NCBI GenBank assembly: GCA_947453525.1
Contig: CANGHD010000008.1
Span: 1-46,751 of the forward strand
Reading direction: 5' to 3'
DNA from: Paracoccaceae bacterium
Lineage (GTDB): Bacteria > Pseudomonadota > Alphaproteobacteria > Rhodobacterales > Rhodobacteraceae
DNA: 46,751 nt
Below, piece by piece: positions 19,317 through 31,174 of the stretch (the first letter of the stretch is position 1; the number at the start of each line of letters is the position of its first letter). The notes under the pieces were generated by a model. The model was not told the origin of the DNA and searched no databases. It saw nothing but the letters and a program-made list of their open reading frames with translations. The position numbers were made by a program, and so were the translations under genes.

Positions 19317-22300
19317 TCAATCGACGCCTGCCTGTGTATCAAAGGTGATCTCGCTGCGCAGGATCATGGCCTGCGCGCTTAAACTGTCGACGACCAGGGC
19401 CATATCGGCGTGGCGGGCACCCTCGCTCCACGGTTTCTCGGCATCCTCGGGGCAGGGGCCGTTCAACGGAACATAGGCCTCGACGGCGTCGATGGCATCG
19501 TTGACCGTGTCCAGAGCTTCGGTCAGGAACTTGGTGATGGCAAGTTCTGCCGCGATGGCCGTGCTGGTGCCATTGGTCTGGTCTGCAAGTTCGGCATCAT
19601 GCATGGCCTTCACCAGGTCATCGCGCTTGGAGGCATAGCCTTTGCCTTTCCACAGCGCGTCGATGCCCGTGATGGCTTCGTCGATCGTGGTGGTGCGGGT
19701 CGATGCTTCGGCCAAGGGTGGGACGGCCTTGGTCAGGGCGGCGGCCTTGAACTTGAACCAGACCTCAAGCTCCAGCTTGGGGATCGACGGATGCCAGTCC
19801 TTGACCACGGGAATCCGGCGCATGACCAGCGGATCGTCGCTGTAGGCGCCGAGGAAATAGGCCACGACGCGCTGGCAGACGTCATTCTCATCGGCCAGAA
19901 GTTCCGGCGTCAGGCCACAATTGCGCGCGACTTCTGCGGCGATCGGGTCTGAATCCTTAACGATGCCGTAAGCCAGCACGCATTTCGACAGGGTCGAGTT
20001 CCAGCGCATCGCCTTGCGGGCCAGTTTGCGGTCGCCCGCCCCTTCGGCAGAGCGCGCCTTCTTGTAGAGCTTCCAGCCCTTGGCGATCTCGACCTCTTTC
20101 TGCATCTTGTAGCCGAAATCGCTGAGCGCACGGGCCATGGTGTTGCCGACCGAGATGCCGGTGGCGACGCCGGTGATATCGCCCAGCTTCAGGCTTTCCG
20201 CCGTGACGCCGACCACCGAGAAGACCACGTTGATCGCCTTCTGGCTGACCTGAATCTGCGCATTGGCCAGACGGCTGCTGATCGCCGGGCCATAGACCGA
20301 GTCATTGCCCAAGGTCAGCGCCATGTTCTTTTGCCAGAGGTTCAGTTCCTTGCTCTTCTTGATCAGCCAAGCCACGTCCGACACAAGCTGGCGGATCGCC
20401 ACGGCCAGCCCGGCGGCGGGCAGGAAACTGACCAGCAGGCCCACGCCGCCCGAGGTGATGGCGTCCAGCGCCGCCCATTTTGCCTTGGTGGATTCGGATT
20501 CCGCGATCAGCGCGTCCATTGCCGCCTTAGCTTCGGTGTTCTTCGAGGTCGCCTCGACATTCGCCGTCGCGGCCGAGGCGAGGCTGATCAGCTTCTGAAT
20601 CTCGGCTTGCTTGACCGAGTTTTCTTCGACGATGTCCTCGATCAGCGCCTTCTTCTTGGCAGGGTCCTTGCCGATTTCCTCGGACAGGGATTTCAGCTCG
20701 GCCTTGGTCTTGGCGGCGTTGCGCGCATTGGCTTCCGCCGCGATCTTGCGGCCCAGTTCTTCTTCCGAAGGCACCTCGCCGGGGAAACCCTTGAGCAGGG
20801 CGTTCATCGACTGCGTGGTCTTGGCCATCGATTGCAGAGCCGAGACATCGCCCTTTTCGCGCAGCTCTTTCTCTTTCTGGGTTTCGACAAACTGATCGCC
20901 GCCGGTCTGGCCCTTGGGCACATCCTCGCGCACCCCATCCGAGGCCACGACATAAGTGCCCGCCATCACCGGGCCGATCACGTTCAACCCGCAGGACGCC
21001 GCCAGCGCACCGTAGTCCGGATCGCGCCCTTCCTTCTTGGCGCGGTAAAGCATGTTGGCGATCTCGCCGATATTGGCCGCGCTGGAGATGGCGGTGGAGA
21101 TGTAAGCGCCGGTCTTGCCCCATTCGCCGCCCGTACCTTCGGACAGTACGGTGCCCTGATCATTCTTGACCGTGGGCTTGTCAAACGCGGCAAAGGCGCC
21201 GCCCACGGCTTCGCCCAAAGAGACGACCATCGCCTTGATGAACGTCGGCCGGTCGTTTTCCGGGGCCTCAAGCGCCTCTTTGAAGCGGAAGATCAGCTTG
21301 GAGCCCGCAAGGCCATAGCTGACAAGGGACTGGACCATCTTGGTCATCCCGGCCGCCTGATCCTTGTCCTGCTGCTTGGCGGTCTTGTCGGCAGCGACCA
21401 GCGAGCCATAGGTGCCGATGCCGGCAATTGCGGTGTTGGCGATGGCGGTCACGGCGGATTCTGCGATTTTCCAGCCCTTGGTGTCGCTTTCCTTGTCCAG
21501 CGACTTGCTGGTCACGTCGAAGACGCCCGAGACGAAGGCGGCGGCAAGGGTGGCTGCGCCCTGATCAAAGACGGCCTCCTTGGCGGACTGGCTCATGTCC
21601 TTGAGGTGCTCAAGACGCAACTGTTCGGGCGAGCCTTGCGGGAACGGCACCTTCTTGTTGGCGGAATCCAGATTGGCTAGGTCGCGCTTGTCGTCGACGC
21701 TCATCGAGGCGCCGTCGAATTCCGCAATCTTGATCGCCGAGGCGGCCATGGACCCGGCCATCTGCACGAAATCTCCGGCGATGCGCAGGGCCCGCTGGGC
21801 CTTTTCGTGCTTGGAGGTCTTTTTGGAATATTCCTTCAGGCGTTCTTCGTAGACCTCGGCGGCGCCTGCGAAAACCTGCGCCTCCTGACTGTATTTGTCG
21901 GCCACGGCGTTCGACGGCAGGATGTCGGCCTTGACCAGCGGCGACCAGAGTTCGCGTTCGATGTCGCGGGCGGTGAACAGGGGCTTGCCGGTGGAATCGA
22001 CAGCATTCTCCATCTTGGTCTGAAGTTCGATCAGCTTCGTGTGCATGTCGATCGCCTTTTTCGCGGCTTTTTCATCGACCTGATAGCCATTGACCAGATC
22101 GTGCTTGGTATCGACCTCTGTGTCGCGGATCATGCGATCCTTCTTGTCCTTGGCGCCGGATTTGCCCTTGCTGTCGCGCACCTTGCCGTCGTCGCCGGGC
22201 TTGGCGTTGGCCTCGCTCCAGTTCATCGTCTTGGTCTTCTTCTTGGATTCACCCCAGAAGATCGATTTCTGCTCGGTCGTCCAGGTCACCTGAAAGGCTT

Positions 22301-22523
22301 GCGCCTCCTTCAACTCGTCGCGCAGCTTGTCGAGTTCCGCGTTGATCTCGGTCAGCTTCGTTTCGCGTTCAGCCTGTTTGGCATTGTCCGCGTTGAACCC
22401 CGCCAGAAGCTTGGCCGCCGCCGTTTCGGCGTCATCGTCATCCAGCGCCTTGAGCGGGTCATCCGGCAAGGGCAACGCCACGGCATTCAGCCATTTGACC
22501 TGATCGGGGGTGAATGTGGTCAT
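19317..22523 (-). CDS. 1068-aa protein of unknown function, last gene of four-gene operon
   Basis: Not recognised. The N terminus FTPDQVKWLNAVALPLPDD resembles that of the 163-aa protein two genes upstream. Residues 45-75 and 560-640 look like charged coiled coils, and 85-135 is very Lys/Asp-rich. Six stretches rich in Ala/Gly/Val occur near 320-337, 355-380, 430-448, 505-527, 692-722 (the most hydrophobic, GGVGLLVSFLPAAGLAVAI) and 763-775. They are more like amphipathic or pore-forming hairpins than regular membrane helices. There is no signal peptide. The C-terminal 300 residues are helical and fairly basic. The ATG at 22523 follows AAGGTG and lies 25 bases after the 911-aa gene. A secreted toxin, effector or large envelope assembly factor are all possible. 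Confidence 0.75.
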   Translation of the reverse strand: MTTFTPDQVKWLNAVALPLPDDPLKALDDDDAETAAAKLLAGFNADNAKQAERETKLTEINAELDKLRDELKEAQAFQVTWTTEQKSIFWGESKKKTKTMNWSEANAKPGDDGKVRDSKGKSGAKDKKDRMIRDTEVDTKHDLVNGYQVDEKAAKKAIDMHTKLIELQTKMENAVDSTGKPLFTARDIERELWSPLVKADILPSNAVADKYSQEAQVFAGAAEVYEERLKEYSKKTSKHEKAQRALRIAGDFVQMAGSMAASAIKIAEFDGASMSVDDKRDLANLDSANKKVPFPQGSPEQLRLEHLKDMSQSAKEAVFDQGAATLAAAFVSGVFDVTSKSLDKESDTKGWKIAESAVTAIANTAIAGIGTYGSLVAADKTAKQQDKDQAAGMTKMVQSLVSYGLAGSKLIFRFKEALEAPENDRPTFIKAMVVSLGEAVGGAFAAFDKPTVKNDQGTVLSEGTGGEWGKTGAYISTAISSAANIGEIANMLYRAKKEGRDPDYGALAASCGLNVIGPVMAGTYVVASDGVREDVPKGQTGGDQFVETQKEKELREKGDVSALQSMAKTTQSMNALLKGFPGEVPSEEELGRKIAAEANARNAAKTKAELKSLSEEIGKDPAKKKALIEDIVEENSVKQAEIQKLISLASAATANVEATSKNTEAKAAMDALIAESESTKAKWAALDAITSGGVGLLVSFLPAAGLAVAIRQLVSDVAWLIKKSKELNLWQKNMALTLGNDSVYGPAISSRLANAQIQVSQKAINVVFSVVGVTAESLKLGDITGVATGISVGNTMARALSDFGYKMQKEVEIAKGWKLYKKARSAEGAGDRKLARKAMRWNSTLSKCVLAYGIVKDSDPIAAEVARNCGLTPELLADENDVCQRVVAYFLGAYSDDPLVMRRIPVVKDWHPSIPKLELEVWFKFKAAALTKAVPPLAEASTRTTTIDEAITGIDALWKGKGYASKRDDLVKAMHDAELADQTNGTSTAIAAELAITKFLTEALDTVNDAIDAVEAYVPLNGPCPEDAEKPWSEGARHADMALVVDSLSAQAMILRSEITFDTQAGVD

Positions 22524-22548
22524 GTCGGCACCTTTTGTCGGGGGTGTT

Positions 22549-25284
22549 TCACTTGAGGAGGGTCAGAAGCTTGACCTGCAGGCGGTCAAGGGCCGCAAGG
22601 GCGGTGTCAAGCGACGTGTCGGCGACGAAGGTCTGCGTCGCAAAGTGCTTGATGGCGGCACTGGTGCGCAGGCGGCCGTTGATCAGCCGCACATCGGCCA
22701 AGGCACTTTCGCGCAACTCGCGGGTTTCGGCGGACAGCGAGGTGTCGCGCACCAGAAGCTTGCAAGTCGAGCGCAGACTGGCAATCGCCTTGTCGGGCAC
22801 CGCATCCCTGACCAGTTTGACGTAGCCTGAAAAGCGGCCGAGGTCGTATTTCTTGGCCGCGTCGTCATCGGCGGACCGCACCTTGGCCTCAAACCCGTCG
22901 ACAAAACGGGCGAAGGTGGTCAGTTGATCGCAAACAAGGTTGGCGGCCTTGTCGATCGGATCGGCCTTGAAGGTTTCCAGTTCATCGGCCACCTTTTCAA
23001 TCGCATCGGCGGTGTCGCTGATCCGTTCCAGTTCTTTCAGGGCGGCCACATAGTCCGGCGCGGTCTTCTGTTCGGTCGCCAGTGCATCCAGTTCCATGAT
23101 GGCGAGGTCGATGTCAGAAGCGTCAAGCTTCAGCTTGCCAATGGTTTCCTTGATCTTGGCAAGGCGCTTTTCGAGGACCGGATGGTCCTTCTTCCACTGG
23201 ACCTTGGCCTTTTCGTCGAGCTCATGGGCTTCCTGCCCCTTCACGGCGTCCTTGCGGAACTCGACCCATTGGTTGATCTCGTCCTTGGTCATCTTGTCAC
23301 GGCCGACGGTCATCCGCCTTTCGACGATCGGACGCTGTTCGTTCAGTTTCTTCTGGATTTCGTCGAGTTTGACAGAAGCGTTGGTCAACCCGGCCTTGTC
23401 GCTTTTCTCGGCCTCGCCATGGGCCTCGGCCAAATCCTTGGTCAACTGGCCCCAGTAGCCAACCAGCGGCACATTGTCGAAAGAGTAGTTGCCCTTTTTG
23501 ATCAACTTTCCCAGCGACTCGAGGCTTTTCGTCAGCCGGGTCTCTTCCTTGTCGAACGTTTCGCGCGCGGTCTTGAGTTCCTTGGCTTCGACGAGGATGT
23601 CTTCCGCCTTCTTTGTCAGTTCCTTCAGCTTTTCGGTGTTCGTCTTGGGCGCCTGCTTCTTGTAGTCCTTGTCGAAAGCATCGGTGGCGATCTTCAGTTC
23701 TGACCGCCGCTCCAGCAGATAGGGGCGGTAGCGCTTTTCAAGCTTGGTGAAGATGTCCCGGATCGCCTTGATGCCGTCGATGATCGTCTGGTAGTTTTTC
23801 GAATTGTCCTTGATATCGGTCTCGAATTTCTCGATCTCGTCCAGATAGGTCGCGGCGCGCTTGAAGGCTTCGACCGAGTTGGTTTCCAGCATCAACTCGC
23901 CCATCTTGACCCGCATGGCGATTTCATCCAGCGCCTCGCGCGGGATGTTGGAGTCTTTCTTCACGTCCTTAGGAGCCTGTGACTTGGCGTCGGTCTGGGT
24001 CTTGCGGCTGCCATCGCGGTTATGCTTGTAAAGCGTCTCGACATTTTCCTTGATGCTGGCGAGTTTCTGGCGGATTTCATCCGGATCGACATTCTCCTGA
24101 ACCAGGAGATCGTCACGGGTGACCGTGACAAGATCGCGCAGCACGTCGATCTGGCTTTCGACAAATGCGGTCTCGGTCTCGATGCTCGCGCTCTGGTTGC
24201 GCACCAGCCACACCAGTTCCGCCTCCTCGGCCTTCTCGTCATTGCCCAGAATGCGCAACTCTCCGGTCAGGCGGGCAAACTCGGTCAGCGCGGTCTTGTA
24301 GGGGCCGAGTTTCACCGCCTCTCCACCGCACTTTTCGGCAAGAGGGTCAAACGGCTTGACAAGGTCCTCCATCTTCAGACCCAGAAAGAGGTTTTTCTTG
24401 CCGATCTCGAACTGCCGGATGTTCAGATCCAGCTCGGATTGCAAGGCGTCGGCGGCATGCATCAGACCCGAGACGCGAATGGCGGCGATGGCCTGCTGCG
24501 CGCGGGCCACCGGACCTTCGATCTCGGGGTTGCGGTTGGGCCGGGCCTGCGCCAGCACAACGCCGCGTCGGGCATTGGCGAAATCGTCGAGCTTCTTCTT
24601 GGTGTCCTCCAGAAGCTTCTCGCCCGCTGCCGCATCATTGTTGTCGGCCAGAGTGTCGGCCTTTTGCAGCATGGTTTGCAGCAGGGTGTATTCCGGCGTG
24701 CTGATGCCGTTGTATTTCGTGGTTTCCTGCAGCGTAGGGTCGCGCAGGGTCACGGCAGTGTTGCGGACTTTGTCGACGGCCTGCGCCACCTCGGCGCGGC
24801 GCTTTTCATAGGCCGTGCGCGACAGATCGCCTATCGGGGTTTTCTTGGTGGAGTTCCGCTCGATCTCGTCCATCTCGCCGTGCAGGCCAAGGATGCCCTC
24901 GCGGATCGCGCCGTCCAGATCTTCCATCTGCTTGAGAAGCCTGGCCCGCTTCAGCGTCACCTCCACGGCGATATCGTGCCGGGCAGAGAGTTCCTTCTGC
25001 TTTTTCTGCGCGATCTTCAGATCGTTTTCGAGGCGAAACTTCTCAAGGTCGCGATGTTCGTCGCGGACTTTGCGGACAAGGTCGGTGACGACCATGTTCA
25101 ACTCGCCCAGTTCCTTGCCCAGCTTGGATTCCGTGGCTTTGGATTGCTCGAGGAGCGACCCGAGTTCCTTCGTCGTCGAGCGGACGGCCCCGTCATTTCC
25201 ACTGGGAACCACGATTGGATCCCAGTTCTTTTCCTTGTTGTATCTGGCGATCCAGTCCTTGAAGCGTTCGTCGTCCTTGGGCAT
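22549..25284 (-). CDS. 911-aa highly charged helical protein of unknown function
   Basis: Not recognised. The whole chain is rich in Lys, Glu, Asp, Leu and Ala with very few Pro or Gly, predicting long helices or coiled coil throughout (for example about 40-130, 260-420, 480-720). It starts MPKDDERFKDWIARYNKEKN. Scattered short motifs such as SFDNVPLVGYWGQLTKDLAE (about residue 590) could be hinges. There is no signal peptide or membrane segment. The ATG at 25284 follows GGAG; gaps of 24 and 25 bases to its neighbours indicate one operon. The build resembles structural, tether or SMC-like arms without any ATPase motif. Partnership with the 1068-aa protein is inferred from position only. Confidence 0.75.
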   Translation of the reverse strand: MPKDDERFKDWIARYNKEKNWDPIVVPSGNDGAVRSTTKELGSLLEQSKATESKLGKELGELNMVVTDLVRKVRDEHRDLEKFRLENDLKIAQKKQKELSARHDIAVEVTLKRARLLKQMEDLDGAIREGILGLHGEMDEIERNSTKKTPIGDLSRTAYEKRRAEVAQAVDKVRNTAVTLRDPTLQETTKYNGISTPEYTLLQTMLQKADTLADNNDAAAGEKLLEDTKKKLDDFANARRGVVLAQARPNRNPEIEGPVARAQQAIAAIRVSGLMHAADALQSELDLNIRQFEIGKKNLFLGLKMEDLVKPFDPLAEKCGGEAVKLGPYKTALTEFARLTGELRILGNDEKAEEAELVWLVRNQSASIETETAFVESQIDVLRDLVTVTRDDLLVQENVDPDEIRQKLASIKENVETLYKHNRDGSRKTQTDAKSQAPKDVKKDSNIPREALDEIAMRVKMGELMLETNSVEAFKRAATYLDEIEKFETDIKDNSKNYQTIIDGIKAIRDIFTKLEKRYRPYLLERRSELKIATDAFDKDYKKQAPKTNTEKLKELTKKAEDILVEAKELKTARETFDKEETRLTKSLESLGKLIKKGNYSFDNVPLVGYWGQLTKDLAEAHGEAEKSDKAGLTNASVKLDEIQKKLNEQRPIVERRMTVGRDKMTKDEINQWVEFRKDAVKGQEAHELDEKAKVQWKKDHPVLEKRLAKIKETIGKLKLDASDIDLAIMELDALATEQKTAPDYVAALKELERISDTADAIEKVADELETFKADPIDKAANLVCDQLTTFARFVDGFEAKVRSADDDAAKKYDLGRFSGYVKLVRDAVPDKAIASLRSTCKLLVRDTSLSAETRELRESALADVRLINGRLRTSAAIKHFATQTFVADTSLDTALAALDRLQVKLLTLLK

Positions 25285-25308
25285 GGTCGGTCACTCCGGC
25301 AAGTTGGG

Positions 25309-25800
25309 TCAGGCGGCGATGTTGCGGCGGATGGCTTTGACGGCGCGGTTGATCGGCGTGCGAACGTCGACCGGAATGCCGAAGACATTGTCTTCGACCA
25401 GAGCTACCAGGGCTGAGGTCGCAAGGTGGTTCTCAAGATCGGCCAGCGCCGTCGACACGGCTGCGGCCTTGGCGGTGCGGTCATCGGGAGCGGCCATGCG
25501 CAGGGCAAGGATATGCCCGCCAATCGCGGTCAGATTGCCGCCCAGAATGTCCATGATGCCATATTCGGCGATGCGCTGCAGGTTGGGGTCGTCGCTTTTG
25601 CCAAGCTCAGCCTTCAGCGCCGCCAAGGAGGCCTCGGCCGAACTGCGCGCCATGACCCAGAGGTCGGCGATGTCGGCGGAATCCTCGTCGAGATCGGTCA
25701 AGAGGGCGCTGACGTCGATCGCCTCGCCCTCCGGGATATCTGCGTCAAGCCAGGTTTCCAGGAAGGCCACCTGCGTCGGGGTCAGTTCAACGTTCGGCAT
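25309..25800 (-). CDS. 163-aa protein of unknown function sharing an N-terminal motif with the 1068-aa protein
   Basis: Not recognised. MPNVELTPTQVAFLETWLD at the start matches the pattern of the 1068-aa protein (FTPDQVKWLNAVALP): hydrophobic-TP-x-QV-x-aromatic-L. An acidic stretch (ALLTDLDEDSADIADLW) follows, and the rest is helical, ending KAIRRNIAA. There is no export signal. GAGGT precedes the ATG at good spacing; it lies 45 bases after the 406-aa gene and 24 before the 911-aa gene. Small size and the shared motif suggest an adaptor or chaperone that binds the same partner as the large protein's N terminus, which is inference. Confidence 0.72.
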   Translation of the reverse strand: MPNVELTPTQVAFLETWLDADIPEGEAIDVSALLTDLDEDSADIADLWVMARSSAEASLAALKAELGKSDDPNLQRIAEYGIMDILGGNLTAIGGHILALRMAAPDDRTAKAAAVSTALADLENHLATSALVALVEDNVFGIPVDVRTPINRAVKAIRRNIAA

Positions 25801-25845
25801 GGCCTACCTCTGGCGGGATGAAGGATCGGATCGGGGTCACGGGGA

Positions 25846-27066
25846 TCACGCCAAGATCTTGCCAAGCGCGCCCAACGAGCGGCGGGCGATGGCGGCGACG
25901 GCGACTTTGGCAAAGCCGTTGGCCTCGTCAACGTCGCGGAAGAACGGGGTTTCGATGGCTTGCATATAGCGATCCAGATGGCCCAGCGCCTCGTCGCGCA
26001 GGCTGCTGATGGCGTCGGGATCGGCCTTGGCGGCGACGTCCAGCGCATCGGACAGATCAGTGTCGAAGACATCCAGCCGGTCGGACAGGTCGGCGGCCTT
26101 GGCGGAAATCTCAGCCATGCGCGGGTCGGGCGAGAGGTGCTTGGCGATGGCGACCTGAAGCTTGGCCATTTCGGCCTGCATCGACTTGAAGGTCTCGCGC
26201 CACAGGCGCGCGGCCTTCGTAAGATCTTCGGGCTTGAAGGAGGCTTTGGGCTTGGCGGCCTGTGTCTCGGCCTTGGGCGGTTCCGGCGGGGGAGGTGCTG
26301 CGGGAATCTCTGCCTGAATGGGCACTTCGAGTGGTGGCGTTACCGGTATTTCGACGCGGGGCACCATCGCCTCGGATCGGACCGCGTCCTTCAGCAGGGG
26401 CATGATCTTATTGACGACCAGCATGGCGTCGTCAAACCGACCGGCTTTGGCGACGGCCAGCGCACCCTTCCACGCGGCCGCCACCTGCGGGGCCTTTTCA
26501 GCGCCGCCTTTGACATAGTCGTCCACACGGGGGCCGACCGCAGCCACGATCTTGTCCCAAGCCTCATTGCGCTGCGCCTCCCGCGCCGCGACGGTTTCCG
26601 AGGTCGGTGCGCCGGGAGCTGGCTGGCCAGGGTTTGGTGTCGTGGCTTGGTCTGCTGCCCGAACAGAGGCCTCTTGCGCCGGGGCGACTTGCTGGGGAGC
26701 CCCTGTGACGTCGTCCTCATCGGTATCCGTGGCCTTGCCGCTTGGGTCAAAGGCTTTGACCTTCAACGTGATCTTCTGCAAGGCAAACAGACCTTTGACC
26801 CTTTTGCACAAACCGGACGGCACATCATCGGCACAGCGCAGCGTGGCGATGCCCTCTTCGACGGTGATGGTGCCAAAGGTCGTCTTGTTGGTTTCTCCCG
26901 CCTTCTTGGCCGCCAGAACCAGACTTTTGGGTTCCTTGGTCTTGGAAAACAGGATCACTGTCGTTGCAGGCGTATTTCCCAGACAGACTGCGAAGCCGAC
27001 CGGATTCTTCTTGGCGGCTTCAAGCTTGGGCTTGATATCAGAAAGGTCATCGGCACTCATCGGCAT
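25846..27066 (-). CDS. 406-aa protein of unknown function, first gene of four-gene operon
   Basis: Not assigned. Residues about 1-105 look like a compact alpha/beta domain (NPVGFAVCLGNTPATTVILF, TTFGTITVEEGIATLRCADD, LFALQKITLKVKAF) of a kind I have seen only in uncharacterised proteins. About 110-165 is a Pro/Ala/Thr linker. Residues 168-230 are helical (RNEAWDKIVAAVGPRVDDYV, then AGRFDDAMLVVNKIMPLL). About 235-275 is Pro-rich (PPPPEPPKAE), and 275-406 is a helical bundle. It starts at 27066 (MPMS) or 27060. It is promoter-proximal, with 541 bases of non-coding sequence upstream shared with the divergent autotransporter. Modular domains joined by flexible linkers suggest a scaffold or regulator of the operon. 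Confidence 0.73.
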   Translation of the reverse strand: MPMSADDLSDIKPKLEAAKKNPVGFAVCLGNTPATTVILFSKTKEPKSLVLAAKKAGETNKTTFGTITVEEGIATLRCADDVPSGLCKRVKGLFALQKITLKVKAFDPSGKATDTDEDDVTGAPQQVAPAQEASVRAADQATTPNPGQPAPGAPTSETVAAREAQRNEAWDKIVAAVGPRVDDYVKGGAEKAPQVAAAWKGALAVAKAGRFDDAMLVVNKIMPLLKDAVRSEAMVPRVEIPVTPPLEVPIQAEIPAAPPPPEPPKAETQAAKPKASFKPEDLTKAARLWRETFKSMQAEMAKLQVAIAKHLSPDPRMAEISAKAADLSDRLDVFDTDLSDALDVAAKADPDAISSLRDEALGHLDRYMQAIETPFFRDVDEANGFAKVAVAAIARRSLGALGKILA

Positions 27067-27607
27067 TGTTCAAATATCCCCAAGCAAGCAGTAACGGAAT
27101 CGGCAATCGGACTTTCGTTCAATGTCAGCACGGACAGCGAAGGTCTGACAAGAGCGAACTGTCGGAGAGAGGTTCCGGAATTGAAGGCGTCCCGTCGACG
27201 CGTTCAATTTGACAGAGGCTCTGGCCGCATGGCAGGGACCAGAGACCCAACGCACCGGGTTTTTGGAAGACCGGATCAACGAAGTTCCGAGAGATGTTGG
27301 AGGCTCCGAGCACAGTGGCAAGCCGTTGCCTGGGTGCTGGTTCCTGATGCCAGACGCGAGGGGCGGCCGGGCCGGGCCAGACTTTTGCCCGATGACGATG
27401 CGGCTTCAGATGCTGCAATCAAAACGTGCAATCGACCCGATCAGATCGTGCTTTTGGGGTTTTATCCAAAGATAACGCGCCTATCCCTTTGAGTAATTGC
27501 TCGCTCCAAGAAGTCGGGTTAACGGCTGCTGTGATCACGCAAAAAGTGTTCATGAGGCTCGGCGATGTCTCTTCGCCTGTACCGAAATACTGGAAAGATC
27601 GAAGAAA
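27067..27607. other. Divergent intergenic region, four-gene operon / autotransporter
   Basis: About 540 bases that must hold promoters for both the minus-strand unknown operon and the plus-strand autotransporter. Frames across it (for example about 97 codons on the minus strand at 27125-27418) show no family I recognise and could be decayed sequence. I see no clear sigma-70 pair, palindrome or terminator. Confidence 0.4.
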
Positions 27608-30600
27608 ATGAAGACGTCATCTCCAAGAGCCACAGATCATTTTGTCGCTTCTAATGCGCTGACAAAGCTGAATCTCTCGCTGTCTGGGCGTATGAAATCA
27701 TACGATCGGGCAAGCGCGTTGCGCGTGCTGCTCATGGGGAGCGTTTGCGCGGTCGGTCTGGTCGCTGGGTTTTCGTCGCAGGCGCGGGCGGACCAGACCT
27801 GCAGCCCGACTGGTGATGTTTTGGCCTGCTCCGGCGATCTCTCGTTGGGTGTGCTGGTCGATCCGGTCTATTCGGGTTTGACGATTGCCGATGTGACCTC
27901 CGATGTCGGCTCTGTCGGCGGTGTCGTGGGGCTTCGCTTTGACAATGACGGCGCCATCACTGTGACCAGCAACACGGGTGATTTCGCCATTGTCGGACAA
28001 GGAACCGGGCTTGAAGCCGTGCATCTGTCCTCATTTGGGGGGGATTATGCTGTCTCGCTGACCCAAACCGGCAATGTGACGTCGGATGCCGGTAAGGCAG
28101 TTCTGGCAACAAGCTGAGGCGATGTTTCGGTCTCTGTGACGGGCGATGTCAGCGGCAAACAGAACGCCATCCAAGCGCAAAGCTTGACCTACGGCAGCGC
28201 TACGGTCGTTCAGACCGGCGACGTGATGTCCTATGAAGGATCGGCGATCTATGCGACCGCACCGGGCGCGGTGGATGTGACGGCCGACGGGTCATTGACG
28301 GCCAAGCAGGACGCGATCTATGCCAACAACTACGGCACCGTTCCGGCCGAGGACGTCAGTGTGACGACCAGCGGCGCGATCGTTTCGTGGGAAGGATCGG
28401 GCATCAATGCTTCCTCGGCCTACAATTCGGTCAAGGTCGACAGCACCTCGGCCATTACCGCCAAACAGGATGGCATCCACGCCAACAGTTCGGGCAATGC
28501 CAACGGCGGCTCGGTCACGGTCGAACAACATGGTGCTGTCACCACCAGCAACGGCGCCGGCATCTATGCTCTGTCGACCTATCACAGCGCCTCGGTCACC
28601 AGCACCGGAGACATCGCATCGGGCACCGATGGCATCTGGGCGAAAAGCACCGGAAGCGCCACGGATGCCAATGTCTCGGTCACCCAAACCGGCAAGGTAA
28701 CCTCCAACACGGCGACCGGCATCAGTGCGGAATCGACCAACCGCGCTGTCGCGATCACCAGCAACGGCGATATTCAGGCCAAGACCGATGGCATCTACGC
28801 CCGCACCAACGGCACCGATGCCCTGACCAGCACGCTTGTCCTGCATCAGACCGGCGCCATCATGGCCTTCGACGGCTATGGCGTGAACGCACTTGCAGCC
28901 CATGAGTCCGTGGTTGTCACCGACAGCGGTGCCATTACGGCCAAGCAGTCAGGCATCCATGCCCGATCGACAGGCAGCAATTCCCAAGCCACCGTGTCCG
29001 TCACCCATGATGGTGGCTTGATCACCAGCTATGACTCCTACGGCATTGATGCCTCGTCTTCGGCGACCAATGTCACGGTGACAAACACAAGTGACATAAC
29101 GTCCAAGCAGGATGGTATCCGCGCCACAATGACGGCCACCAATGCGCCCGGCTCATCCTCGACCGTGAACCAGACCGGCACAATCCTCAGCTACGACGGC
29201 TACGGCATCTATGCAACGGCAACCGAGGCCGGGGTTTCGATCACCAACCACGGGAACATTCAGGCCAAGATGGGCGGCCTTTATGGCTATGCGGCGGGTG
29301 CTGCGGACAATGCCACGGTCACGATCGACAACACGGGTGACATCAACACCTATGACGGCGCAGCCATATCGGCGGTTGCCACCAGCCAATCGGTCAGTGT
29401 CACGCAAAATGCAGGCAACCTCACCGGCGGCAGCTACGGGATTTATGCGGAATCCAAGACCAAAACGGCATCTGCCACGAACTGGGGCGTGATCCGCTTC
29501 ATGAACAACACCGGCGTTTATCTGCGCGGTATCACCGGCACCACGGTCACAAACTACGGTGCAATCAACGGAGGCGATGATCAGTTGGCCATCGCCACGG
29601 AAGGCTATGGCGGTTCGGTTGTCGACAACTATGGCACGATCGAAGGCGCGGTCACGATTGATACCGGCTTCAGTTCGTTCAACAACCACTTGGATGCAGC
29701 CTATGGCGTCACGGACCTGGCTTTCAACCAAGGCGGTGTCCTGACCAACGACGGCAATCTGTCAGCCGGAAAGGATTCAAATTACTTTTTTGACATCCAT
29801 GAGTCTCACGTCGGTGGTGATCTGGTCCAGTCAAAAACGGGTGTCCTTTGGATCGACGCCTCGGCCACCGCAGCGGACAAGTTCGTCGTGGCCGGCAATG
29901 TGTCACTTGATGGTGGGCTTCGGCTGCACTTCTCTGACTTCGGCGCGGCGCGGTCTATCGACGTTCTCAGTTCCTATTGGGTGGATGTCGGCAATCTCAA
30001 GCTGCTGAACCCTGCAGTCAATGCCACGATCCGCTACACTGATACCGATGTCATGCTGGACTACACCGGCCTCAACTTCGGGGCGAACCTGTTGACCGAT
30101 ACGACGCGGCCGATTGGTGACAGTCTGACCGCCGCCTACAACGCGGGAAGCCCGACGCTTGATCCGCTGTTCAACCGTTTGGCCTATATCGCTGATGACG
30201 CCGAGTATCAGGCCGCCCTTGATCAACTGACGCCTACCTTGGTTCTGTCGCAGGCGAGGCAGGCCCAGATCGGCGCCATCGGGTTTGCCGACTCGCTGAT
30301 GAGTTGCCCGGCCGGGTCTGGCCTTGCCTTCTCGATCGGACAGGGGTCGTGCGTCTGGGGTCGTGGCGAGCGTGTCGACGTCTCGCAAGATAGCTACGGC
30401 GCGGTCACACCCTATGGTGCCAAGGATCTGAACCAGGAAATCGGCGGGCAATTTGCACTGAGCGAAAAGCTTTACCTCGGCCTGTCGCTCGGGTCGAACA
30501 ACAGCAATCTGGACGCGGGCGCGTCTGGCAACAGCACTCAGTCCGGTACACAGGCTGGGGCCGCGCTGAAATATGTCGACGGCGCTTGGTTGTTCTCGGC

Positions 30601-31174
30601 GGCTCTGTCTGAGGGTCAGGGCAAGATCGACACCACGCGTAATGTGACCATCGGCGATTTCGCGGAAACGCTGAAAAGCCAACGCGATGTGAAGTCCCAG
30701 AACCTGCGTCTGCGTGCGGCCAATTCGATGGATCTGTCAGGCAACTTCTACCTCAAGTCGGTGCTTGATCTGAACGTAACGCGCGTTTCGACCAACGCCG
30801 CGACGGAAACTGGCGGCATCTCTGCCCTGAGCTATGCCGCCGGCTCAAACGTGATGTACTCGCTTGCGCCCACGCTGGAACTGGGGGCGAAGTTCGCCGA
30901 GGCCAATGGACTTGTGGTCAACCCGTTCATTCGGGTCGGCGCCTATGAACAGTTCGGCAAGTCGCAAGGCTTGAGCGGAGACTTCGCTCAGTCTGAGGCC
31001 ACTGACGGCAGCTTCACGATCCGTTCCGCCGCAGCAACCCAACGCAACACAGTGGCTCTGGGGGTTAACCTGGTGAAGTCTGACCTTGGCAGCCTGAACC
31101 TGCTTTACAGCCGCCAAATTGGCGATGGCGCAGACCTCGGTGCGATCTCGCTGAAAGGAACGGTCCGGTTCTAA
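27608..31174 (+). pseudogene. Autotransporter adhesin interrupted by one in-frame TGA
   Basis: A 1188-codon frame encoding a type V secretion protein. It has an extended signal peptide (MKTSSPRATDHF... to SQARA, about 62 residues), a beta-helix passenger built from about 53-residue repeats, and a C-terminal translocator of about 280 residues ending LKGTVRF with the required terminal Phe. Codon 170 (28115-28117) is TGA, while the same frame continues open for another 1018 codons. Comparison with the repeats places the stop exactly where one residue belongs (ATS-stop-GDV against ATAPGAV), so it is a point change, not an indel. As written only a 169-residue exported fragment is made, unless the stop is read through, is an assembly error or is a recent mutation. 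A terminator follows. Confidence 0.82.
28154..29400 (+). repeat. Passenger-domain tandem repeats, 159-162 bp
   Basis: Units of 53-54 residues recur with the pattern AITAKQDGIxAxSxG...VSVxQTGxIxSxDGxGIxA. The AKQDGI-like core starts near 28154, 28301, 28460, 28619, 28778, 28940, 29102 and 29264; after the first interval the spacing is 159 or 162 bp. DNA identity between units is moderate, so the duplications are old or have been diversified. Regular GxI/VxV steps fit a right-handed beta-helix. Confidence 0.75.

Follow-up and report, generated by a model that had tools for sequence, protein, structure and literature searches.

Delivery domains of the type VI secretion system (T6SS) that occur as stand-alone proteins or fused to their cargo are already known from the accessible text of earlier work, and comprise MIX, DUF2345, RIX and WHIX. 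RIX is an arginine-rich domain of about 55 residues, confined to Vibrionaceae and Moritellaceae, for which secretion has been shown and which is characterised as necessary and sufficient for export by the T6SS, and its authors speculated, in the part of the paper available, that other bacterial families possess T6SS secretion domains of their own (PMC10435454). In roseobacters, the system contains TssCL, a fusion of TssB and TssC; as far as the available sections of the describing paper go, the way in which TssCL joins in a sheath is left open, and the T6SS has no function described either in the squid symbionts or in any of the reference roseobacter genomes (PMC9515649). Here we compare with these systems a locus of four genes, named A (406 amino acids, aa), A2 (163 aa), B (911 aa) and C (1068 aa), in a 46,751-nucleotide stretch of DNA (the window; contig CANGHD010000008.1 of the 4.0-Mb, 302-contig genome GCA_947453525.1 of a Paracoccaceae bacterium). 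By a modest preference, and judging from gene content and neighbourhood, we take the four genes to encode a cargo-adaptor module of the T6SS subtype that carries a second, diverged TssC-like protein, which is TssCL in many genomes. The locus is laid out as follows.

Gene A, 25846-27066, minus strand: 406 aa, with an N-terminal alpha/beta domain, linkers and helical parts; proposed T6SS adaptor.
Layout of gene A: N-terminal domain (A-NTD), residues ~1-119; linker; helices 156-232; linker; helical C-terminal domain (CTD), residues 279-405, type 1.
A-NTD, 26710-27066, minus strand: 119-aa domain, which in other places forms the N terminus of large toxin-like proteins or is encoded next to tssA/tssC.
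Gene A2, 25309-25800, minus strand: 163 aa, with the N-terminal motif LTPTQVAFL and a type 2 CTD.
Gene B, 22549-25284, minus strand: 911 aa; charged, mostly helical partner, type 1.
Gene C, 19317-22523, minus strand: 1068 aa, predicted to be almost all helix; the most conserved member; proposed cargo or effector.

The four open reading frames (ORFs) are intact and separated by 45, 24 and 25 bp, with the coordinates and sizes given in an earlier model reading of the window (the original prediction). By sequence comparison, A-B-C is a conserved neighbourhood whose homologues do co-occur at 45 loci, and the suggestion of an undescribed system made in that reading thus holds in outline. Because gene order is conserved across these loci, chance ORFs are excluded. 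The loci were obtained by a profile scan with C that used one genome per species, and by record title they are mostly from Rhodobacterales and Pseudovibrio, with one from Azospirillaceae, two from Rhodospirillales and one from a Singulisphaera metagenome-assembled genome; a protein search found C in 10 of 198 genomes of the family. B lies directly before C at 39 of the 45 loci (median gap 22 bp), and at 43 when a wider B profile is used that adds L070-L073 (E 6e-43 to 1.8e-5), leaving L044 and L063 as C loci without B. An A-type gene is present in the fetched stretch at no fewer than 28 of the 45; some were overlooked by the mechanical ORF picker, such as an NTD match inside L019, so that this number is a minimum. 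Pairwise identities of B and C correlate with r = 0.94 over 741 pairs, a value that, like the p values below, is too strong because the genomes are related, and that, as for the counts of motif-bearing ORFs and of genes after C, includes near-duplicate genomes and ORFs chosen by the same picker. Types 1 and 2 of B form one family (hhalign E 7e-30). CTD types 1 and 2 of A are likewise related (E 6e-9), the C terminus of A at L015, L016, L017 and L023 is homologous to A2 of the window, and CTD type 2 is related to the C terminus of type-2 B (E 5e-9); no such link to the C-terminal domains of A was seen for type-1 B, the kind present in the window. Relatives of C were found neither in phages and viral contigs nor in the first single-sequence genome scan, and plasmid records include one with C and seven with the NTD.

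The connection to type VI secretion comes from co-occurrence with TssC (PF05943) in samples of 198 genomes of the family and 292 genomes of the order. TssC is present in 45 of the 198 family genomes, and in 10/10 of those bearing C compared with 35/188 of the others (Fisher p=1.6e-7). It is also present in 43/43 genomes behind the C loci, including the two Rhodospirillales, the Azospirillaceae and the Singulisphaera genomes; at least 7 of these 43 are already counted in the 198-genome sample, as identical coordinates indicate, and L042 and L068 were not counted, as by title they come from the isolate already represented by L035. At 8/45 loci (five Pseudovibrio, two Pseudorhodobacter and one Halocynthiibacter), T6SS core genes are found no farther than 10 kb from C, and in Pseudovibrio and Pseudorhodobacter either B-C or C alone follows tssL-tssM or tssK-tssL-tssM-tagF-pppA in a single same-strand run. 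Representative T6SS labels were checked with Pfam (DotU, IcmF, TagF, PP2C, VgrG, PAAR and VasE), and the remaining labels rest on sequence reading and similarity. A second, diverged VipB match accompanies C in 41/43 genomes. In the source genome of the window, the T6SS cluster comprises, by similarity labels, TssC, Hcp, ImpE, TssE, F and G, ClpV, a TssCL-like ORF, VgrG, PAAR, FHA and TssM. Among the options of the original prediction was a contractile machine, and it is to the T6SS that these genomic links point. On one 382-kb plasmid (L015, G094:C3), A-B-C and a T6SS cluster are found together, with type I secretion genes immediately upstream of A.

The NTD, represented by a profile of 119 positions, occurs in 18/198 family genomes, 17 of which have TssC compared with 28 of the 180 others (p=1.1e-11). 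In the sample of the order, the corresponding fractions are 22/22 and 58/270 (p=4e-14), with 3 of the 22 also included in the first sample. A second VipB match of ~110-170 bits, a band that was chosen after viewing the rows and that leaves out second copies scoring outside it, is present in 17/17 and 22/22 NTD genomes, compared with 3/28 and 9/58 genomes that have TssC but no NTD. As read from the rows, the second VipB ORF is at least 1000 aa long in 14/17 and 21/22 of the NTD/TssC genomes. In 15/22 and 8/17 genomes, tssC and the start of an NTD gene are no more than 3 kb apart, and the NTD genes near tssC are divergent from tssA in the clusters read. A single-contig genome (G175:C1) has 14 A-NTD matches, an expanded set of candidate cargo proteins.

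A short N-terminal motif may link the putative cargo to A. The original prediction had pointed to matching N termini in the small protein and C, and these read LTPTQVAFL in A2 and FTPDQVKWL in C. A motif pattern, composed after inspecting the sequences, is found in 40/62 C-type, 19/48 B-type, 2/37 A-type and 2/467 other ORFs of at least 200 aa; the B protein of the window does not have the N-terminal motif. The NTD is also fused N-terminally to large toxin-like proteins, and in two families motif and fused NTD replace one another. In the first, a 1728-aa protein of the source genome has no NTD, carries the motif near its start and is followed by a CpXC gene and then by an A gene; from about residue 190 it is homologous to proteins of 1845, 1885 and 1927 aa with a fused NTD and no motif, the latter two of which have homologous CpXC genes directly after them. 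In the second, a 152-aa gene and then an A gene come after a 1157-aa motif protein, which is homologous to proteins of 1248, 1287 and 1379 aa that have a fused NTD, no motif, and a homologous gene of 145-150 aa after each. From these cis and trans layouts, that is from gene organisation, we infer that A is an adaptor and that its NTD is a delivery domain.

The giant CpXC-linked proteins, with the NTD fused or an A gene nearby, are located at L025:3585-9491, L087, L088 and L108 (1728-1927 aa where measured) and are probably a family of effector plus partner; L088 (G027:C37), which encodes the 1885-aa NTD protein with CpXC, is from a genome without a TssC match. The proteins of 1157-1379 aa and their homologous 145-152-aa genes (L019:13920-17888, L089, L091 and L092) are possibly effector-immunity pairs. 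Domains detected on NTD proteins are DUF4781 together with Endonuclease_NS_2, and VanY (E 1.8e-5, at its cut-off), and genes neighbouring NTD genes have CdiA_C, Fic and Pkinase domains. Two proteins adjoining an A gene, L018:2742-5837 and L096:3576-6644, combine a protein-kinase domain with a motif-like N terminus, which is only a near match to the motif.

Our best reading is that A serves as a T6SS adaptor, and that B and C are large helical cargo or co-cargo whose secretion and toxicity we infer. A would dock onto the T6SS apparatus via its NTD and hold the cargo in trans via its helical C-terminal domain, recognising the motif F/L-T-x-x-Q-x-x-W/F-L at the N terminus of a partner that has no fused NTD. 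C would be the cargo, together with its helical partner B, and would probably act on a membrane through a conserved hydrophobic segment, while A2 may duplicate the C-terminal module of the adaptor. The original prediction had proposed an effector with tether and chaperone; the outline survives, in that the genomic links suggest cargo and adaptor, although the T6SS had not been identified. In a more specific form, offered tentatively, the A-NTD would be a family-specific delivery domain of the TssCL-type T6SS, fused in cis or supplied in trans by a motif-reading adaptor, and A-B-C would be a secreted three-part complex with C as the membrane-inserting component. A domain that tracks the TssCL-type T6SS and marks probable cargo would provide a direct route to effectors in Rhodobacterales, Pseudovibrio and relatives, and the swap between cis and trans yields a clear prediction on the recruitment of cargo that has no fused domain.

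The idea of membrane insertion derives from the conserved segment at residues ~690-720 of C, its only support. On a 19-residue hydrophobicity scale, C has six separate stretches above 1.2, in agreement with the six hydrophobic stretches originally predicted, but ~690-720 is the only one that stays clearly hydrophobic across 40 homologues (>1.0 in 97% and >1.5 in 65%), and the earlier description of C as pore-like comes down to this segment. The alignment retains 40 of 54 rows, formed by 53 ORFs of L031-L075 and the window, after omission of split, near-duplicate and partial sequences. In the predicted structure, helices 659-698 and 702-740 are joined by a turn over which the segment extends. 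Alpha-helical pore-forming toxins of the ClyA/MakA type are helical bundles with a hydrophobic tip. B is charged and mostly helical, as had been predicted, with 36% charged residues, and its highest window on the same scale reaches only 1.04, so that none is strongly hydrophobic.

As for RIX, the A-NTD is an N-terminal domain of diverse toxin-like proteins and also occurs on toxin-less proteins encoded beside cargo; its gene is often outside the T6SS cluster, and it is limited to certain T6SS-carrying bacterial families (compared on the available text of PMC10435454). Unlike RIX, the A-NTD is 119 aa long, predicted to be alpha/beta, and contains 5.0% Arg (the first 55 aa of C contain 4.0%). 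It also differs in being found mainly in Rhodobacterales and other alphaproteobacterial records, in having a putative role in secretion, and in that its putative cargo bears an N-terminal motif of its own. It can be regarded as a candidate for the kind of family-specific T6SS secretion domain on which the authors of the RIX study speculated. MIX is compared here together with six domains of vgrG loci, DUF2345 and LysM among them (PMC10673891); in the accessible part of that paper these were recognised by their position beside vgrG, whereas A-NTD genes are beside tssA/tssC or elsewhere; the stand-alone and fused gene layout of MIX is alike to that of the A-NTD, layout being the point compared. 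WHIX resembles the A-NTD as a T6SS delivery domain common to polymorphic effectors (available text of PMC12135965), but its WHxxxH motif is present in 0/21 NTD, 0/40 C and 0/26 A proteins, the last taken from an alignment of 25 of the 28 A rows plus the window. TssCL defines the same T6SS subtype as that of most NTD/TssC genomes, but is a machine part, and the accessible sections of PMC9515649 contain no description of A, B or C. More widely, no description of A, B or C was found in the T6SS literature on Rhodobacterales, roseobacters and Alphaproteobacteria, exclusive of supplements, figures and most subscription papers; the unnamed conserved T6SS-cluster genes in the available text of a Pseudovibrio study (PMC4811931) may include them.

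Several observations weigh against a cargo-adaptor module. At 37/45 loci, no T6SS core gene lies in the 10 kb on either side of C, an A-type gene is absent from the stretch at 17/45 as judged by the mechanical ORF picker, and no case of an NTD fused to C was seen. A TssC match is missing from one of the NTD genomes, G027, and a second VipB from two of the 43 C genomes, G996 and G1025. The second VipB ORF reaches 1000 aa in only 24/41 C genomes, and the TssCL-like ORF of the source genome (L077:7310-9040) has just 576-580 aa, compared with 1000-1780 aa in most NTD-bearing relatives; the label TssCL suits many, not all, of these ORFs. The relatedness of the genomes, which inflates the p values and the B-C correlation, belongs on the same side. 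The hydrophobic segment of C is in a low-confidence part of the model (residues 689-701 below 50), and Foldseek searches of the PDB gave nothing below E 0.25 for A or below E 0.36 for C. Finally, no immunity-like family recurs when the two genes next downstream of C are compared (104 genes at 54 loci, near-duplicates included), in contrast to the CpXC-linked and ~150-aa-linked families; the largest groups are opposite-strand Pseudovibrio genes (6 and 5 loci), followed by two groups of four loci each, one of which is OmpA/YceI-like. Since no conserved immunity-like gene follows C, C may be anti-eukaryotic, a non-toxic co-cargo or a machine part.

In the machine-part reading, the products of A, B and C would not be secreted but would serve as accessory or structural components of this T6SS subtype, for example a scaffold, anchor or regulator working with the second TssC-like protein. 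The near-fixed distance of 2.4-3.0 kb between A-type genes and tssC in the 15/22 and 8/17 genomes, the position of B-C or C after tssM or pppA in Pseudovibrio and Pseudorhodobacter, the absence of an immunity-like gene after C and the tracking of the second VipB by the NTD all speak for this reading, but the fusion of the NTD to, or its location beside, varied toxin-like domains and the 14 NTD matches in one genome fit cargo better, and 35/45 TssC-positive family genomes have no C match; we consider such a structural role rather unlikely. The same lack of a conserved immunity-like gene agrees with C and B being a pair of effectors that the T6SS delivers against eukaryotes, which is a sub-version of the cargo-adaptor module, and the conserved hydrophobic segment and the host-linked titles of several C records (brittle star, Bugula, Pseudovibrio) are in line with it. 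A host-target domain was not found, however, immunity might be encoded elsewhere, and T6SS clusters are not enriched in host-associated isolates according to the available text of PMC9515649, which makes this variant an improbable one. A helical system with no tie to the T6SS other than co-inheritance, be it for envelope, scaffold or defence, would account for the 37/45 C loci away from core genes, but is very hard to reconcile with the presence of TssC in 43/43 and 10/10 genomes, the occurrence of C within T6SS gene runs in two genera and close to T6SS genes in one more, the NTD on toxin-like proteins and the negative PADLOC result described below.

The original prediction had been unable to assign any of the four proteins to a family, and A, A2, B and C indeed have zero matches at E<=0.001 in Pfam, PHROGs, NCBIfam and PADLOC; the searches revealed no known, unrelated family to which they are clearly homologous. 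The lowest E among these searches, 0.0033, is for B against a PHROG tail-fibre model. Defence, another of the functions first considered, is not supported, as PADLOC models for anti-phage defence give 0 families for all four proteins at E<=1. DUF4123, DUF1795 and DUF2169 are the classic T6SS adaptor families. None of these three is listed for the four window proteins and 21 NTDs (E<=1) or for 56 NTDs (E<=5), in Pfam listings at loose E where speed filters lose most matches above ~0.1.

The predicted structure of A (mean pLDDT, the predicted local distance difference test, 82.5) has a compact NTD, low-confidence linkers and two helical regions, much as the first reading of the sequence had it. 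The NTD is modelled at pLDDT 94-96, in the order alpha-beta-beta-alpha-beta-beta-alpha-beta-beta. C is modelled as almost all helix (pLDDT 72.6; predicted template modelling score, pTM, 0.62). The fold matches of A (PDB and BFVD) and C (PDB), none below E 0.08, were rejected as merely common helical arrangements; those of A are dominated by the C-terminal bundle, so that the NTD itself was barely probed. Also discarded were the best match of the C profile to PDB sequences (E 0.048) and the Pfam matches of the NTD. With 21 members, the latter comprise 8 weak families, each in one member and none recurrent, and with 56 members they are DUF3801 (5 members, best E 0.0072), Internalin_N (4), Pil1 (3), DUF1971 (2) and GHMP_kinases_C (a single member, E 1e-4), none of them recurring at a meaningful E. 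Against PDB sequences, the NTD profile built from 21 sequences has ribosomal protein eL22 as its best match (E 0.0074, collinear over NTD positions 18-100); with 56 sequences, eL22 falls to E 0.042, behind a GRAM-domain match at 0.031. An eL22 fold for the A-NTD may thus be taken as a lead, not as a result.

Caspase-like (C14) proteins, joined at some of the loci by YceI-OmpA-like proteins, are encoded near C at L024 and L067, and also at L043, L059 and L066. In the window, two same-frame ORFs on the plus strand, 27497-28117 and 28136-31174, the second with an Autotransporter beta-domain, are perhaps one autotransporter gene split by a stop codon.

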